Shown here piece after piece: positions 6,693 to 15,583 of a DNA stretch of 64,000 nucleotides (the first letter of the stretch is position 1; the number at the start of each line of letters is the position of its first letter). Source of the DNA: Terrisporobacter mayombei (GTDB lineage Bacteria > Bacillota > Clostridia > Peptostreptococcales > Peptostreptococcaceae); NCBI RefSeq assembly GCF_020748465.1, contig NZ_JAHZMP010000003.1, forward strand, positions 434,001 through 498,000, written 5' to 3'. The notes below the pieces were generated by a model, which was not told where the DNA came from, did no database searches, and saw only the letters and a program-made list of their open reading frames with translations. Position numbers and translations under genes: made by a program.

Positions 6693-8096
6693 CTAATGTG
6701 TAAATCCGTATGTTTTTTTATCTGTTTCTTTACCATGAACTAATACATTTGCATTATTTAAGTCTTTTATAGCTGTTTTAAGATCTCTTATGAATAATTC
6801 AGCCATGTCATGACTTAAATCAGCTCTACATACTATACGTTGTATTATAATATCTTGTAAGTTTTCTGGTAATGGATAAGCAGGTATTTGCCATCCTTTC
6901 ATTGCTAATCTGTCTGCTAAATCATATAGTGTCCATTCTACGTTAGCATCATCAACTAATCTATAACATACAATTGGTAAGTTTTCACCATTGTCATAAA
7001 TTTTAAATAAACCTATTTTTTCTATTTCATCTGATAAATACATAGCAACATCTTTCGTACGTTGATGTATTTCTCTATATCCCTCAAATCCAAGGCGTAA
7101 GAAGTTATAATATTGTCCTATAACTTGACTTGCTGATCTTGAGAAGTTTATTGCCATTGTTGGCATTGTTCCACCTAAGTAACTTACTTCAAATATTAGT
7201 TCTTTTGGTAAGTACTCTTCATCTTTCCAAATTACCCAACCTATACCTGGATAAACTAATCCATATTTATGCCCTGATGTACTAATTGATACTACATTTT
7301 TCAATCTAAAATCCCATTCCATATCTGGATCTATGAATGGAGTAAATAGTCCTCCTGATGCACCATCAACATGTATTGGAACACTTATTTTTGCTGTTTT
7401 ATTATATTTTTCTAGTAATGCATCTAATTTTTTTATGTCATCAAATTTTCCTGTGTAAGTTATACCTTGTAAGGCTACAACACCTATTGTGTATTCATCT
7501 ACATAGTCTAATACTTTATCTATATTTAAACTCATATGTTCTTCATCCATTGGTACTAAACGCATTTCTATATCCCAGTATACGCAGAATTTTTCCCAAC
7601 AAACTTGATATCCTGATGATATTACTAAGTTTGGTTTTCTCTTAGTTATGTCTATTCCTAATTTTTCAGCTCTGTTTCTCCATCTAAATTTCATAGCCAT
7701 ACCACCAAGCATACATGCTTCTGATGATCCAACTGTTGATGTTCCTAGATAATTCATATCTTTTGGAGCATTCCATAATTTAGCTATCATATTTACACAT
7801 CTGTTTTCCATTTCTGTTGTTTGTGGATATTCTGATTTATCTATAGCATTTTTTTCTAAAGTTTCTGCCATAAGTTTAGTTGCTTCATCTTCCATATATG
7901 TTTGACAGAATGTTGCTAAATTAAGTCTCGCATTCCCTTCATTCATTAACTCATCTTTGATTAATCTATACGCCGTTTTTGGGGCAATAGAATTTTTCCC
8001 TAATATATCCTTTGGTATACTAGAGCCAGATTCTGTTGATCCAAATACCGGTGTTTCATAACTATCTCCTAATTTATCATTTCTTCCAAATAACAT
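6693..8096 (-). CDS. gadB: Glutamate decarboxylase
   Basis: PLP-dependent group II decarboxylase of 467 residues. It converts glutamate plus a cytoplasmic proton to GABA and CO2. The PLP lysine is Lys277 in STSGHKYG; the cofactor-binding STVGSSEA (120-127) and HVDGASGG (242-249) motifs are intact. The C-terminus ends GFTH. In E. coli GadB a histidine next to the C-terminus closes the active site at neutral pH; the terminal His467 may do the same, but that is inference. The ribosome site AGGAGG is eight bases upstream. It lies 53 bp downstream of the antiporter gene gadC, so the two form the classic acid-resistance pair. Confidence 0.95.
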   Translation of the reverse strand: MLFGRNDKLGDSYETPVFGSTESGSSIPKDILGKNSIAPKTAYRLIKDELMNEGNARLNLATFCQTYMEDEATKLMAETLEKNAIDKSEYPQTTEMENRCVNMIAKLWNAPKDMNYLGTSTVGSSEACMLGGMAMKFRWRNRAEKLGIDITKRKPNLVISSGYQVCWEKFCVYWDIEMRLVPMDEEHMSLNIDKVLDYVDEYTIGVVALQGITYTGKFDDIKKLDALLEKYNKTAKISVPIHVDGASGGLFTPFIDPDMEWDFRLKNVVSISTSGHKYGLVYPGIGWVIWKDEEYLPKELIFEVSYLGGTMPTMAINFSRSASQVIGQYYNFLRLGFEGYREIHQRTKDVAMYLSDEIEKIGLFKIYDNGENLPIVCYRLVDDANVEWTLYDLADRLAMKGWQIPAYPLPENLQDIIIQRIVCRADLSHDMAELFIRDLKTAIKDLNNANVLVHGKETDKKTYGFTH

Positions 8097-8149
8097 GTTT
8101 AAAACCTCCTCTGTTTAAATAATTAATATATATATTTAAAACATGTTGC

Positions 8150-9580
8150 CTAATTTATTGTTTTTACATCTCTTTTTTTAGATGTAAATTGATATATTAC
8201 AAATGGTATTAAAACTGTAATAATAAAACTTATTATTAATATAGTTAAGTATTCATGAGCACTTTTGCCAGTTAATTGAGCTGGTGGCACAAATGAGATA
8301 ACTAATGCAAATATTGATGTTAATAAACCACATGCTGCAATTACTAATTTAAATGGTTTTCCTCCTGGAACGTGATAAGCACGTTTTAAATCAGTTTTTT
8401 TAAGGATTAATGCAAAATATCCTATGAAGAATAATAAGTATCCAACTAAATATATTACAACTGTTAGTGATATAGCTGTAAGGAATGATACGTTATTTCC
8501 TCCCCCACCAAATGTAAGAACGGCAGCCCATATTGTAACTACTACTCCTTGTACGAAAACCAAATTAATAGGAACATTATGTTCATTAGTTTTTGTTAAT
8601 TGTTTAGGTAAGATGCCTTGTTGTGCTGCAGCATACATACTTTTAGAAGGTCCTACAACCCATGCACTAACTTCACCCATCACACCTAATGCTAATAATA
8701 TAGCAATTATTTTTACAATCCATGTTCCATGAGGCATAAAGTGTAGTACTAATGCTTCAAATGTTTCAACAACGCCTGAACTTAAACTTAATTGACTTTG
8801 TGGAACTACAGCTGCAACTGTTAATCCACCAATAGTATTTAGAAGTATTGCAAGAATAACTAGTGTAATCATAGCTAATGGATAATTTTTCTTAGCATCT
8901 TGCAATTCATTTACATGAGAAGCTGAAGCTTCAACTCCCATATATGCAAGTATAAATGAAACAAATACAACTAATGTATTTACCTTAGAAAAATCAGGTA
9001 TGAAGTATTGTGCTCCTATTTTTACATTTACAGGATTACCTTGAAGTAAATATGTAATTGATAATCCAAATAATATTATCGCTGGTATTAAGATACCAAA
9101 TATAAATCCAGCCTTTGCTATTTTAGCTGTATTTTTAGTACCACCTAATTGTGAAAAAGTTAGGGCCCAGAAAATCACCAATACACCAATAAACTTAATT
9201 AGTGGAACATTATTTAGTGCATCCCAATTAAATATATATGAAATGCAACCTAAAATAAAATAAATCATGGTTACAAATCCAACTGTTATTTGAAACCATT
9301 GAAAGAATATTGCTGCAAACCCAAATTTTTCACCTAATGTGTTTCCAACCCAATCGAAAATACCTCCCTCTTGCCAACCGTCAACTGTCGCCATTTCTGC
9401 TGCACATAAAGCAACTGGTAGAAACCATAATATACCTCCAAGCAAAAGGAAGAATACCAAATGAAATCCTGATGTTGCGAATGTAGGATATTCATAAACA
9501 GTCATAACCATTGATGCAGTCATTGCAAAGAATGCAAACAATGTTAGTGAATGTTTTTGAGATGCTTGTGCATCATTCAT
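8150..9580 (-). CDS. gadC: Glutamate:GABA antiporter
   Basis: Integral membrane protein of 476 residues with about 12 hydrophobic segments, belonging to the amino acid-polyamine-organocation superfamily. It carries the GadC-like N-terminus (KHSLTLFAFFAMTASMVMTV) and the GYLLFFIGYFALILKK block near the C-terminus. It imports glutamate and exports GABA made by GadB, with net removal of protons from the cell. I chose the ATG at 9580: AGGAG lies nine bases upstream of it, whereas the ATG at 9589 overlaps that ribosome site. It is the first gene of the gadC-gadB operon, preceded by a leader of about 150 bp. Confidence 0.92.
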   Translation of the reverse strand: MNDAQASQKHSLTLFAFFAMTASMVMTVYEYPTFATSGFHLVFFLLLGGILWFLPVALCAAEMATVDGWQEGGIFDWVGNTLGEKFGFAAIFFQWFQITVGFVTMIYFILGCISYIFNWDALNNVPLIKFIGVLVIFWALTFSQLGGTKNTAKIAKAGFIFGILIPAIILFGLSITYLLQGNPVNVKIGAQYFIPDFSKVNTLVVFVSFILAYMGVEASASHVNELQDAKKNYPLAMITLVILAILLNTIGGLTVAAVVPQSQLSLSSGVVETFEALVLHFMPHGTWIVKIIAILLALGVMGEVSAWVVGPSKSMYAAAQQGILPKQLTKTNEHNVPINLVFVQGVVVTIWAAVLTFGGGGNNVSFLTAISLTVVIYLVGYLLFFIGYFALILKKTDLKRAYHVPGGKPFKLVIAACGLLTSIFALVISFVPPAQLTGKSAHEYLTILIISFIITVLIPFVIYQFTSKKRDVKTIN

Positions 9581-9892
9581 TCTAATCATCTCCTAATTAT
9601 TTATTTTTTATTTCATTACATCAAGAACATTTTATATTTATTATGTTCATGGTATTTAGTTACCCGCCAAATTTTCTTTAAAACACATATGATAAACTTC
9701 GTAAAATTGTTAAATTTCTTATTTTACTGACATTATAGTTTGCAAAAAATTAATATTACCTTATTTATTTTAACTATTTTTCATACATTATTTTTTTGTT
9801 GTTTTTTGTAATAATATAATATTTTTAAAGTATTTTATTATATTTTTTTAACAAAATAATCCACAAAAAAAATATATTAGTAGAAAAATAAA
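9581..9892 (-). promoter_or_regulatory. Leader and probable promoter region of gadC-gadB
   Basis: Gene-free region upstream of gadC. On the minus strand a perfect TATAAT is at 9737-9732, about 150 bp before the gadC start; its -35 region is poor, which would fit an activated promoter. The leader holds an inverted repeat GAACAT (9625-9630) with ATGTTC (9643-9648). No riboswitch class is recognised. Confidence 0.4.
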
Positions 9893-9980: not shown

Positions 9981-10163
9981 CTATGCATTTAATGCAGCTA
10001 ATAATTCTTCTAAATTTATTCCATGTACTTCAGAAGCTTGTTCTAAAGTTTCAACCTGAGCTGAAGGACAACCGATGCATCCCATTCCAAATCTCATTAG
10101 TATTTCAGCTGCTGCTGGATTCATTTGTATTATTTCACCAATTGTATTATTTTTAGTTATCAT
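9981..10163 (-). CDS. DUF1858 / hybrid-cluster-associated redox disulfide domain protein
   Basis: Protein of 60 residues that is a single DUF1858-type domain: TIGEIIQMNPAAAEILMRFG, then the CIGC motif (about residues 29-32) and the LEQASEVHGINLEELLAAL helix. The family is called hybrid-cluster-protein-associated redox disulfide domain and resembles the N-terminal domain of ScdA/YtfE iron-centre repair proteins. The CxxC pair could bind metal or act as a thiol redox switch. It is the last gene of a three-gene operon (with the 10750 and 10194 genes) that diverges from the HcpR-like regulator gene. Its ribosome site AAGGAG is correctly spaced. The role in nitrosative stress is inferred from context. 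Confidence 0.85.
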   Translation of the reverse strand: MITKNNTIGEIIQMNPAAAEILMRFGMGCIGCPSAQVETLEQASEVHGINLEELLAALNA

Positions 10164-10193
10164 AGTTTTAATCTCCTTATTATTTTAAATTTT

Positions 10194-10745
10194 TTATTTT
10201 ATATATTTTTCTTCTAGATTATTAAGTATACCAATATTTTCTTCTCGAGTGATAGAATTTTTTTCTTCATATTCAAAACATTCTTTATCTATTGATTTTA
10301 GTAATTTTTCATCTAATGTTCTCATCGCATAAGTAAATATTACGTTATCTTCTTTATGAATATGATTTTCTAATAAAGTTGTATAAGAAATAGCATTTGC
10401 TACAACATCTAATTTTGCTTCTTTATTTCCACCTTCTAATTGCTTTAAAGCTAATTCTAAATTTCTTATATAATTTCTGCCTAAGTCATGTTCTACTAGC
10501 ATACCGTGGGTAATTATATTTTTACCCGTTTCTCCTAAGTTTTCTACCATTTTATTAAACAAAAATATTTCTTCCTTTTTATGATGATGATTATCTGCAA
10601 AATTTTTCACAAAATTTATCATGCTTTTAAAATCGTCATAATTAATTTCTCCATCTTCTACTAATTTAAAACATGATTTTCTTATTACTAGAAGCATTCT
10701 TTTTACATATTTGTGTTCTTCTATTAATAACTCAATTCCGCTCAT
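10194..10745 (-). CDS. Hemerythrin HHE cation-binding domain protein
   Basis: All-helical protein of 183 residues with candidate di-iron ligands spaced as in HHE hemerythrins: EEH (His11), NHHHKKEE (His53-55, Glu58-59), EHD (His86) and NHIHKED (His128, His130, Glu132). Such proteins bind O2 or NO at a di-iron site; in YtfE/ScdA the same domain repairs damaged iron-sulfur clusters. Here the HHE domain and the ScdA-like small domain are separate neighbouring genes. It starts four bases after the upstream stop codon with a good AAAGGAG site, so translation is probably coupled. The exact function (O2 carrier, NO scavenger or iron donor) cannot be told from sequence. Confidence 0.88.
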   Translation of the reverse strand: MSGIELLIEEHKYVKRMLLVIRKSCFKLVEDGEINYDDFKSMINFVKNFADNHHHKKEEIFLFNKMVENLGETGKNIITHGMLVEHDLGRNYIRNLELALKQLEGGNKEAKLDVVANAISYTTLLENHIHKEDNVIFTYAMRTLDEKLLKSIDKECFEYEEKNSITREENIGILNNLEEKYIK

Positions 10746-11388: not shown

Positions 11389-11441
11389 AAACACATCTCC
11401 TTTATCTTTTTTATTTCTTATCTTTTGTATTATTTGTACCT

Positions 11442-11447
11442 ATAATA
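11442..11447 (-). promoter_or_regulatory. -10 element of the divergent stress operon
   Basis: TATTAT on the minus strand. Its downstream edge (11442) is 34.5 bases from the centre of the palindrome at 11469-11484, the same spacing as at the hcpR and hcp promoters. The -35 position is covered by the palindrome, as in class II Crp/Fnr-activated promoters. Confidence 0.65.
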
Positions 11448-11468
11448 CCTTAATATTCACTTTCATTC

Positions 11469-11484
11469 TGTAACATATGTTACA
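11469..11484. promoter_or_regulatory. Perfect 16-bp palindromic operator between divergent promoters (HcpR-type site)
   Basis: TGTAACATATGTTACA, identical to the core palindrome upstream of hcp (14935-14950). Crp/Fnr-family regulators bind two-fold symmetric sites of this size. The site is centred about 41.5 bases from the predicted start points of both divergent transcripts, so one dimer could serve both promoters. The regulator gene itself is the plus-strand neighbour. Sequence and spacing are seen directly; the binding protein is inferred. Confidence 0.85.
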
Positions 11485-11505
11485 TCTACATAAAATTTAC
11501 ATTTT

Positions 11506-11511
11506 TATGAT
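11506..11511 (+). promoter_or_regulatory. -10 element of the hcpR-like gene
   Basis: TATGAT with its downstream edge 34.5 bases from the centre of the 11469-11484 palindrome, mirroring the minus-strand promoter. No good -35 element is present, which fits positive autoregulation. Confidence 0.6.
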
Positions 11512-11551
11512 AAAATCAATAGTAAGAAATTTATTATTTTAAGGAGTTAAA

Positions 11552-12263: not shown

Positions 12264-12473
12264 TTAACTAAAAGTTAAATATTCATTTTCCAATTCATTT
12301 ACTATGTAATCGATTCCTTTTGAGTAAAAATCATTGTCACCACAAAGCTTCACATAAGTAGTAGATTTAAAGAATATATCTGTACTTTCTTGTAATGATA
12401 TATTTTTTAAACTTGCAAAATGATTAATAATCTGCGGAAAAAGTGATTTTAATAATTCGTCTTTAGCATTCAT
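12264..12473 (-). CDS. Small hypothetical protein (69 residues)
   Basis: I cannot assign a function. The pattern (amphipathic helix, ISLQESTDIFFKST, VKLCGDN, SKGIDYIVNEL) resembles a set of small clostridial proteins of unknown function with a helical N-terminus and an acidic C-terminus. It begins 29 bp after the PIN-like gene on the same strand, with a TAGGAG ribosome site, and is followed by a clear terminator, so the two probably form an operon. No signal peptide or membrane segment is seen. Confidence 0.65.
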   Translation of the reverse strand: MNAKDELLKSLFPQIINHFASLKNISLQESTDIFFKSTTYVKLCGDNDFYSKGIDYIVNELENEYLTFS

Positions 12474-12502
12474 TTTTTATCTCCTAATAATTTATTAATA
12501 GT

Positions 12503-13102
12503 TTATGCAGTTTCATTAATATTAGATTTTTCATTATAGTAGTCTTCTAATATATCTATGCATCTATATAGTACAGTGAAATTTCCACCAAACTCCATTA
12601 GAAATCTATCTTGAGCATCTAATAGAGATTTTGCTCCAGCTAATATAAGTGTCATTTTTATTGCTGTTTTTGATCTAAATCCTTTTTCTATAAACTTATC
12701 TATTATATTATCTACATCATCTTCTTTAAATAACTCTGAAATACTATTTATAAGCTCTATTTTATAATCAGTGCAGTTTTCTAAAAGATTTATAGAACTC
12801 AAAAATCCTCGATCTTTACTTACTATATAATAATGGTTAGCCTCATATCTATGTTGTCCTATTATGAACCCTAGATAAGATACTAATTGAAAATCCAAGC
12901 TATTTTTTACTCCTGTAGTAACATTTATTTTCAAAATATTTGCCTTTGTGTTTAAGCATTTTAATTTATCTCTTCCAAATTGAAATACGTTTGTTCTTTC
13001 TGTTACAAATAGTATTATTATATCTTCTTCATTTAATTTATTTGCACTGCTTAGAGCAGTAATATTCACATTCTCCGTATCAACTAAAAATATTCTTTTC
13101 AT
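12503..13102 (-). CDS. PIN-like (PIN7/NYN-type) domain protein, probable ribonuclease
   Basis: Protein of 199 residues. The first 120 residues show the PIN/NYN pattern: an acidic residue after the first strand (FLVDTENVN, Asp8 and Glu10), NSLDFQLVSYLGFIIG (second acidic site) and YYIVSKDRGFLSSI (third acidic site). Such folds cleave RNA using a metal bound by the acidic residues. The C-terminal part (about 125-199) is helical and unassigned. It lies between hcp and the hcpR-like gene but has no copy of their palindrome, so membership in that regulon is not supported. Proteins of this kind may act in RNA decay or in defence; the sequence does not decide. Confidence 0.72.
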   Translation of the reverse strand: MKRIFLVDTENVNITALSSANKLNEEDIIILFVTERTNVFQFGRDKLKCLNTKANILKINVTTGVKNSLDFQLVSYLGFIIGQHRYEANHYYIVSKDRGFLSSINLLENCTDYKIELINSISELFKEDDVDNIIDKFIEKGFRSKTAIKMTLILAGAKSLLDAQDRFLMEFGGNFTVLYRCIDILEDYYNEKSNINETA

Positions 13103-14907: not shown

Positions 14908-14913
14908 ATTATA
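14908..14913 (-). promoter_or_regulatory. -10 element of hcp
   Basis: Perfect TATAAT on the minus strand, its downstream edge 34.5 bases from the palindrome centre, giving an operator at about -41.5. The -35 position is occupied by the operator. Confidence 0.78.
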
Positions 14914-14926
14914 TATACAACAATAA

Positions 14927-14958
14927 AAAGAATCTGTAACATATGTTACAGATTCTTT
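14927..14958 (-). promoter_or_regulatory. HcpR-type operator of hcp embedded in a 32-bp palindrome that also reads as a terminator
   Basis: The core TGTAACATATGTTACA (14935-14950) equals the hcpR-side operator. Here the symmetry extends eight bases further on each side (AAAGAATC / GATTCTTT), giving a perfect 32-base palindrome. On the minus transcript this forms a 14-16-bp stem followed by T5, directly downstream of the 14994 gene. One element may therefore end that gene's transcript and serve as the hcp activator site. Confidence 0.8.
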
Positions 14959-14993: not shown

Positions 14994-15401
14994 CTATTCT
15001 AAACTCTCTAAGACAGCACAAAATTTCCTAAATTCATCTATATTCTTTATATCTTTTAAATTTCTAATATCAATCATACTGTTACTAGGTTTATGTTTTA
15101 AAAACTCCATATCATATATTTCACATTTACAAAAACCTTTTAAAAATACATACTTATGTGGTTCATATTTATCAATGTTGTTCTCAAAGTATTTTATCTT
15201 CGCATAACACAATCTATTAATATAAAACAATAATGCTAATGCTGATTCCTTTTGGGCAAATTTATGTGAAAAATACTTAACAGAATGATATTTATCATGC
15301 TTAAATTCCCATCTCAGATCATCTGAGCAAGTAAGGGAATATTTTTCTATCAGTTTTATTTTATCTAAACTTAGTTGTCTCTTTAATATTTCACCATTCA
15401 T
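14994..15401 (-). CDS. Hypothetical protein, 135 residues
   Basis: I do not recognise a family. The protein is basic and aromatic-rich, with several cysteines (for example FCKCEIYDMEF) and no membrane segment. The ATG at 15401 is preferred because a G-rich ribosome site (AGGGGTGGGG) ends just upstream; a longer frame to 15446 lacks one. It lies alone, upstream of hcp on the same strand, and its 3' end is 36 bp from the combined operator/terminator palindrome. Readthrough could therefore reach hcp. Base composition is like that of its neighbours. Confidence 0.6.
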   Translation of the reverse strand: MNGEILKRQLSLDKIKLIEKYSLTCSDDLRWEFKHDKYHSVKYFSHKFAQKESALALLFYINRLCYAKIKYFENNIDKYEPHKYVFLKGFCKCEIYDMEFLKHKPSNSMIDIRNLKDIKNIDEFRKFCAVLESLE

Positions 15402-15583
15402 GTCCCCACCCCTAAAAATATTAGTATTAATTAAATTATAATCCATGGATTATATAAATACTATTTAGGTTCACTAGTTTACATATTGAAGTTTTAGATA
15501 ATAAATAGCAATAAATAAAATTTTTAAATATATTATTATAAAAATTTGCTTTGTACAAGTTAATATACTAGAAATTATCTATA

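Follow-up and report, generated by a model that had tools for sequence, protein, structure and literature searches.

Genetic Organization of the hcpR Region

The window analyzed, a 64,000-nucleotide stretch of the Terrisporobacter mayombei genome, contains hcpR, encoding a transcriptional regulator, a divergently oriented operon for a conserved 212-aa protein, a hemerythrin-domain protein and a small DUF1858 protein, and the gene for the hybrid cluster protein, hcp, which lies end to end with hcpR (Table 1). The DUF1858/ScdA_N-like and hemerythrin-domain genes adjoin each other (9981–10745, minus strand) as if the iron-centre repair protein ScdA had been split in two; matches of the two proteins to ScdA-type models are weak or partial. 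Genes for a glutamate decarboxylase and a glutamate/GABA antiporter, resembling the acid-resistance pair gadB/gadC, are located directly downstream of the operon (6693–9589, minus strand). Between hcpR and hcp, positions 12264–13102 (minus strand) code for a 69-aa protein assigned to no family and a PIN7-domain protein.

Table 1. Genes and putative regulatory elements around hcpR (positions within the window).
Feature	Position	Strand	Remarks
DUF1858 / hybrid-cluster-protein-associated redox disulfide domain protein, 60 aa	9981–10163	-	PF08984 and TIGR03980 above cut-off
Hemerythrin-domain protein, 183 aa	10194–10745	-	PF01814 above cut-off
First operon gene, conserved protein, 212 aa	10750–11388	-	No Pfam family; invariant His9, His67, Cys141 and His164
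Predicted operon transcript start	11435	-	From spacing, 7 bases past the -10
Operon -10-like element TATTAT	11442–11447	-	Ends 34.5 bases from the operator centre; invariant in 5 genus genomes
HcpR2-type operator TGTAACATATGTTACA	11469–11484	strandless	Between hcpR and the divergent operon; perfect palindrome, invariant in 5 genus genomes
hcpR -10-like element TATGAT	11506–11511	+	Ends 34.5 bases from the operator centre; invariant in 5 genus genomes
Predicted hcpR transcript start	11518	+	From spacing, 7 bases past the -10
hcpR, Crp/Fnr regulator of the HcpR2 kind, 213 aa	11552–12193	+	PF00027 and PF13545 above cut-off
hcp, hybrid cluster protein / hydroxylamine reductase, 546 aa	13227–14867	-	PF03063, NF003658, TIGR01703
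hcp -10-like element TATAAT	14908–14913	-	Ends 34.5 bases from the centre of the second operator
Second, identical HcpR2-type operator	14935–14950	strandless	Upstream of hcp

The HcpR Regulator

The product of hcpR comprises a sensor domain (PF00027, 45.3 bits) and a Crp-type helix-turn-helix (PF13545, 54.9 bits), and its residues Arg176-Pro177 occupy the positions equivalent to CRP 180 and 181, which bears out an initial sequence-only reading that had called the gene HcpR-like. It is 96% identical to its counterpart in Terrisporobacter petrolearius, the nearest named genome. The best solved relatives found by profile search are 9day, whose Met-Val-Gly-Pro stretch and whose Arg-Gln helix lead us to take it for Porphyromonas gingivalis HcpR, and 1o5l, a regulator of the Crp family that is presumably a Thermotoga protein. 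For comparative analysis the best 80 of 314 named loci encoding HcpR relatives were used. The Arg-Pro pair is present in 80/80 of these relatives, a count biased by a retrieval pattern that favours Pro.

In Clostridium and other anaerobes, regulators of the HcpR2 group have been associated with the consensus GTAACnnnnGTTAC, tied to a Pro at position 181 (Rodionov et al., 2005, PMC1274295). Consistently, a GTAACnnnnGTTAC site lies upstream of hcp, and hcpR and hcp are about 1 kb apart, end to end; the end-to-end arrangement is also found in Asaccharospora (L068).

An Fnr-type N-terminal cysteine cluster is absent from HcpR, the first cysteine being residue 37; this Cys37 is kept in 70/80 relatives. 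In P. gingivalis HcpR, haem is bound by Met68 (PMC12750200). The corresponding residue here is Arg52, and Lys or Arg stands at this place in 79/80 relatives, so that the ligand of P. gingivalis-type haem sensing is missing. These substitutions suggest that clostridial HcpR2 may sense by a chemistry other than haem ligation of the P. gingivalis type. By analogy with the family, the signal would be nitric oxide. A distant HcpR relative (33–35% identity) is also encoded in two Terrisporobacter genomes (G004 and G005), where the palindrome in front of it, AGTTACATATGTAACT, has its half-sites in the opposite order.

An Operator Facing Two Promoter-like Elements

The operator TGTAACATATGTTACA is its own reverse complement over 16 bases, centred at 11476.5, and agrees with the published HcpR2 consensus GTAACnnnnGTTAC. 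The sequence-only reading had placed one palindrome between the HcpR-like gene and the operon, with the downstream edges of TATTAT (11447–11442) and TATGAT (11506–11511) equally distant from its centre, and both the sequence and these coordinates proved exact, as did the distance of 34.5 bases on either side. With starts predicted 7 bases past each -10, the two transcripts would begin 83 bp apart and the palindrome would stand at -41.5 of both, which agrees with the two-sided class II geometry claimed earlier. Both AAGGAG at 11541–11546, before hcpR, and AAAGGAG, directly in front of the ATG of the operon, are located downstream of the predicted starts.

A promoter scan found no TTGACA-type -35 partner for either of the divergent -10 elements, and both therefore display the poor -35 region of class II promoters. 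There is a weak promoter-like TTTACA-16-AATAGT pair at 11496–11523, one such pair being found against a mean of 1.7 in shuffled sequences. The palindrome at 11469 is not merely the stem of a terminator: it stops at 16 bp, and no terminator was called there.

Palindromes with up to three mismatches are expected about once per window, and it is the exact copy that counts. To estimate how often the flanking elements would arise by chance, both 60-base flanks were shuffled 20,000 times with dinucleotides preserved. Hexamers of the TA...T type with at least 5/6 matches appeared at 34.5 on both sides at a rate of 0.0005, or 0.0057 when one base either way was allowed. For the plus-strand flank alone, the rates were 0.029 at 34.5 and 0.085 within one base; in such an AT-rich region a hexamer of at least 5/6 occurs at a fixed place about 2–3% of the time.

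Across the assembly, which comprises 325 contigs and 4,158,146 bases, GTAACnnnnGTTAC-N22-TAnnnT has three exact matches, namely the two sides of the 11469–11484 site and the hcp site. With one mismatch there are four matches, one of them inside a long coding frame. The sequence TGTAACnnnnGTTACA occurs exactly at three places, the third (C325:48894) being within a coding frame of 603 aa, in its 5' end; this copy has no -10 of at least 5/6 within 3 bases of the 34.5 spacing.

Conservation within the genus was followed in the five genomes that carry hcpR out of six (G000–G005); in the sixth (G003), the contig starts just 26 nt ahead of the first gene of the operon. All 16 positions of the palindrome and all 6 of each hexamer are invariant in the five genomes, against 15/21 and 17/21 columns in the two spacers. 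In one of the five (G005), the spacing on the hcpR side is 33.5. The hcpR leader has kept its length, with 74–75 bases from the operator centre to the ATG. A TATAAT on the opposite (plus) strand at 11441–11446 has become CATAAT in two of the five genomes, while both -10 hexamers are unchanged. The two-sided arrangement at class II spacing is thus genuine and specific, and it is preserved across the genus.

The Second Operator Upstream of hcp

The 16-base operator has one further exact copy in the window, upstream of hcp, which the sequence-only reading had overlooked. The -10 element of hcp, like those of the divergent pair, has no TTGACA-type partner according to the promoter scan. The second operator is embedded in a 32-bp perfect palindrome (14927–14958) that could form a two-way terminator-like hairpin (-17.4 kcal/mol). 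Since this hairpin is located just past the end of the gene at 14994–15446, one element may both end that gene and control hcp. A role as a mere terminator was rejected, as the spacing to the -10 and the core in common with the first site argue for an operator as well.

Among other genome sites, 12 stretches around 16-base matches with no or one mismatch were examined. An exact HcpR2 core was found upstream of a gene similar to SagB-type dehydrogenases (G000:C221:227707). The SagB-like gene is present in 3/6 genus genomes, with the core kept in all three and a -10-like hexamer at 33.5 or 34.5, and is a possible fourth HcpR target promoter.

The Unannotated First Gene of the Divergent Operon

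The 212-aa protein matches no Pfam family above cut-off. Its predicted fold appears to resemble that of H-NOX/TRAPP/V4R proteins. In H-NOX domains, His101 ligates haem and a Tyr-x-Ser-x-Arg motif is characteristic; His101 and Tyr130/Ser132/Arg134 were invariant in 15 H-NOX domains. In 35 aligned members of the 212-aa family, the helix that precedes the strands (124–134) has no conserved His, and the Tyr-x-Ser-x-Arg motif is absent. Profile comparison gave an hhalign probability of 0.7%, and 2/6 column-shuffled controls scored higher. Homology of the protein to H-NOX was not found at the sequence level; the Pfam H-NOX model had no match in G000.

In a set of 71 genomes, the family has 43 matches in 42 genomes, and 30 of these matches became loci. 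Seventeen of these 30 loci (5 from Terrisporobacter and 12 from other genera) have an exact HcpR2 core with a strong -10 at 34.5; the remainder comprise one with a -10 at 33.5, seven weaker ones and five with none, one of the latter cut by a contig end. With presence defined as E<=1e-30 for HcpR (43/71 genomes) and E<=1e-10 for the 212-aa gene (42/71), 32 genomes carry both genes, 18 neither, 11 only HcpR and 10 only the 212-aa gene, an association between the two genes (Fisher p 0.0015, kinship ignored). The family can be pointed to as a recurrent part of a likely nitrosative-stress response.

Comparison of the Target and hcpR Sides in Related Genomes

In 29 of the 80 relative loci, no exact palindrome was present in the stretch examined. 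Palindromes on the hcp side (n=29, two of them from Terrisporobacter) are followed by a -10 (TA...T) of at least 5/6 at 34.5 in 20 cases and at 35.5 in 8. For palindromes facing frdX (n=20), the -10 is at 34.5 in 19 cases and at 35.5 in one, against a hexamer rate of 2.6% per position at other offsets. These sites of relatives indicate that class II spacing characterizes the regulon itself, independently of the window.

Within 300 nt upstream of hcpR, 33 palindromes were found, including two pairs with the same hcpR-side flank. The divergent target side has a class II -10 within one base of the expected place in 33/33. On the hcpR side, start codons being chosen by a simple ribosome-site rule, such an element is present in 3/3 Terrisporobacter loci (L065, L066 and L067, corresponding to G002, G004 and G005; offsets 0, 0 and -1) versus 1/30 of the others. 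This single case cannot serve as a promoter because the start codon is only 32 nt away, and a usable hcpR-side -10 is thus found in 0/30 palindromes outside Terrisporobacter. For 24 of these 30, at most 56 nt separate the centre from the start codon, too few to accommodate a class II promoter together with a leader.

A looser search for two-sided TAnnnT patterns gave 14/393 genomes of the order, 4 of them of the genus, a control pattern having none among the matches listed, and 6/391 genomes of the class, G000 included, the control pattern having one (G450). None of the 19 loci examined provided a second hcpR case with two strong hexamers outside the genus. Four candidates were rejected: hcpR is only 21 nt away in G167 and G131, it is 92 nt away in G574 but the hexamer is only TAAGTT, and in G032 TATAAT is present on both sides, yet one side runs into a gene end. 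Sites with genes on both sides and hexamers of 4/6 on at least one side occur in G713 and G532. Their flanking genes are presumably hcp and a transporter-like gene in G713, and hcp and an ATPase-like gene in G532. These two genomes count against the uniqueness of two-faced sites as such.

Proposed Mechanism and Alternative Explanations

The binding of the palindrome by the neighbouring HcpR and the activation of the operon are well-founded predictions, since an HcpR-like regulator, a matching pair of recognition helix and palindrome, and the class II position in relatives all point to them. Activation of hcpR itself is less well supported than that of the operon, because a usable hcpR-side -10 is restricted to Terrisporobacter and the case is built on five related genomes.

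The arrangement that we consider rather probable is as follows. HcpR would bind the operator at 11469–11484 and activate both the divergent operon, predicted to function in nitric oxide defence, and its own gene; the second, identical operator would serve hcp from the same distance. With the hcp promoter included, a single regulator is thus likely to drive three promoters at this locus. In related genera a usable class II -10 was found on the target side only, and hence the hcpR-side promoter is probably a Terrisporobacter addition. The most parsimonious evolutionary explanation is that hcpR came to adjoin a first operon gene already driven by HcpR, with a leader long enough to supply the second -10. 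The best reading of these comparisons is that a one-sided HcpR promoter became two-faced in Terrisporobacter, likely adding positive autoregulation.

Alternatively, the site may work in one direction, with HcpR activating the operon and hcp and being neutral or repressing at hcpR. The latter gene would then use another promoter, such as one at the plus-strand TATAAT (11441–11446) reading through the operator. Such a reading is consistent with the one-sided state of all 30 palindromes outside Terrisporobacter, which have a target-side class II -10 and no usable one towards hcpR, and with the repression of divergent acsP1 by FNR bound at -41.5 of nrf (PMC5434802). It is nevertheless somewhat unlikely, as the hcpR-side hexamer is invariant in the five Terrisporobacter genomes while the plus-strand TATAAT has changed in two, and hexamers at 34.5 on both sides are as rare in shuffles as given above.

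The hcpR-side match could also be a product of AT-rich DNA, with hcpR transcribed from an unrelated promoter and the site having no effect on it. Between 2 and 9% of shuffled plus-strand flanks do give such a hexamer at the same place, and the weak TTTACA-16-AATAGT pair is at hand, although only at the level expected from shuffles. The invariance of the hexamer and the preserved leader length make a coincidence improbable. Still less credible is the use of the palindrome by another Crp/Fnr protein instead of the neighbouring HcpR. The distant HcpR relative in G004 and G005 would be a candidate, but it is preceded by its own, differently ordered palindrome; moreover, G000 has a single HcpR match at E<=1e-20, the recognition residues of HcpR fit this type of site, and the sites are located at hcpR and hcp.

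If the two-sided operator operates as proposed, with the same bound dimer used in both directions, the two polymerases would probably compete for it, since the common site would be occupied in either class II complex. The 83-bp distance between the predicted starts suggests that one dimer would serve the two sides in turn. Self-amplification of HcpR and induction by NO would follow as inferred properties of the circuit. A further, tentative and rather doubtful step is a self-amplifying switch, in which one bound HcpR dimer would support two polymerases by turns, each excluding the other, and so couple the output of the defence operon, headed by the new protein of H-NOX-like fold, to the rise of its activator.

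The region would represent a natural case of positive autoregulation probably gained through spacing alone, with a clear one-sided state for comparison and a single hexamer that can be tested. An operator common to two promoters is also a small system in which to ask whether one activator dimer can serve two class II complexes simultaneously. For Clostridia in general, the comparison yields a sharp rule for HcpR targets: GTAACnnnnGTTAC, 22 bases, and a -10.

Comparison with Known Systems

El-Robh and Busby reportedly described, in 2002, a single CRP target activating divergent promoters, in work that by its title deals with promoter-probe plasmids. The arrangement in Terrisporobacter differs in being natural and in including the regulator's own gene.

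The kind of system to which the locus belongs, an HcpR2 regulon with class II activation, is already known: the site has the HcpR2 motif described in 2005, with matching recognition residues in the neighbouring regulator. As in the HcpR2 regulon of PMC1274295, an Arg-Pro recognition helix is combined with GTAACnnnnGTTAC, the gene lies beside hcp, and hcp is a target. Unlike the proposal made here, the available text of that paper describes no -41.5 spacing, two-promoter site or autoregulation for HcpR2; its mention of autoregulation concerns NorR2. An HcpR site common to two promoters, or work on Terrisporobacter HcpR, was not found in the portions of the literature that were searched. The proposed two-faced use, with hcpR itself on one side, is a variant at the genus level of which no description was found there.

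In Clostridioides difficile, expression of hcp and frdX falls in an hcpR mutant (PMC12915319). HcpR is thus needed there for expression of hcp, the putative target here, and of frdX. At position 181 the C. difficile regulator has Ser in place of Pro, its motif differs as well (PMC1274295), and its gene sits with hcp-frdX rather than facing the divergent operon found in Terrisporobacter. For Desulfovibrio, activation was predicted from sites located upstream of or touching the -35 (PMC545781).

In E. coli, the FNR site lies within 4 nt of -41.5 in 19/23 activated promoters with known starts (PMC3688515). The promoters predicted here resemble such class II Crp/Fnr promoters in the predicted position of the site at -41.5 and in their poor -35, but differ in that a single site faces a class II -10 on both sides. 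In the nrf/acsP1 region of E. coli, FNR likewise acts at -41.5 of one of two neighbouring divergent promoters; in that system the other promoter is repressed, whereas in Terrisporobacter a -10 at the class II distance is present on both sides of the operator (PMC5434802).
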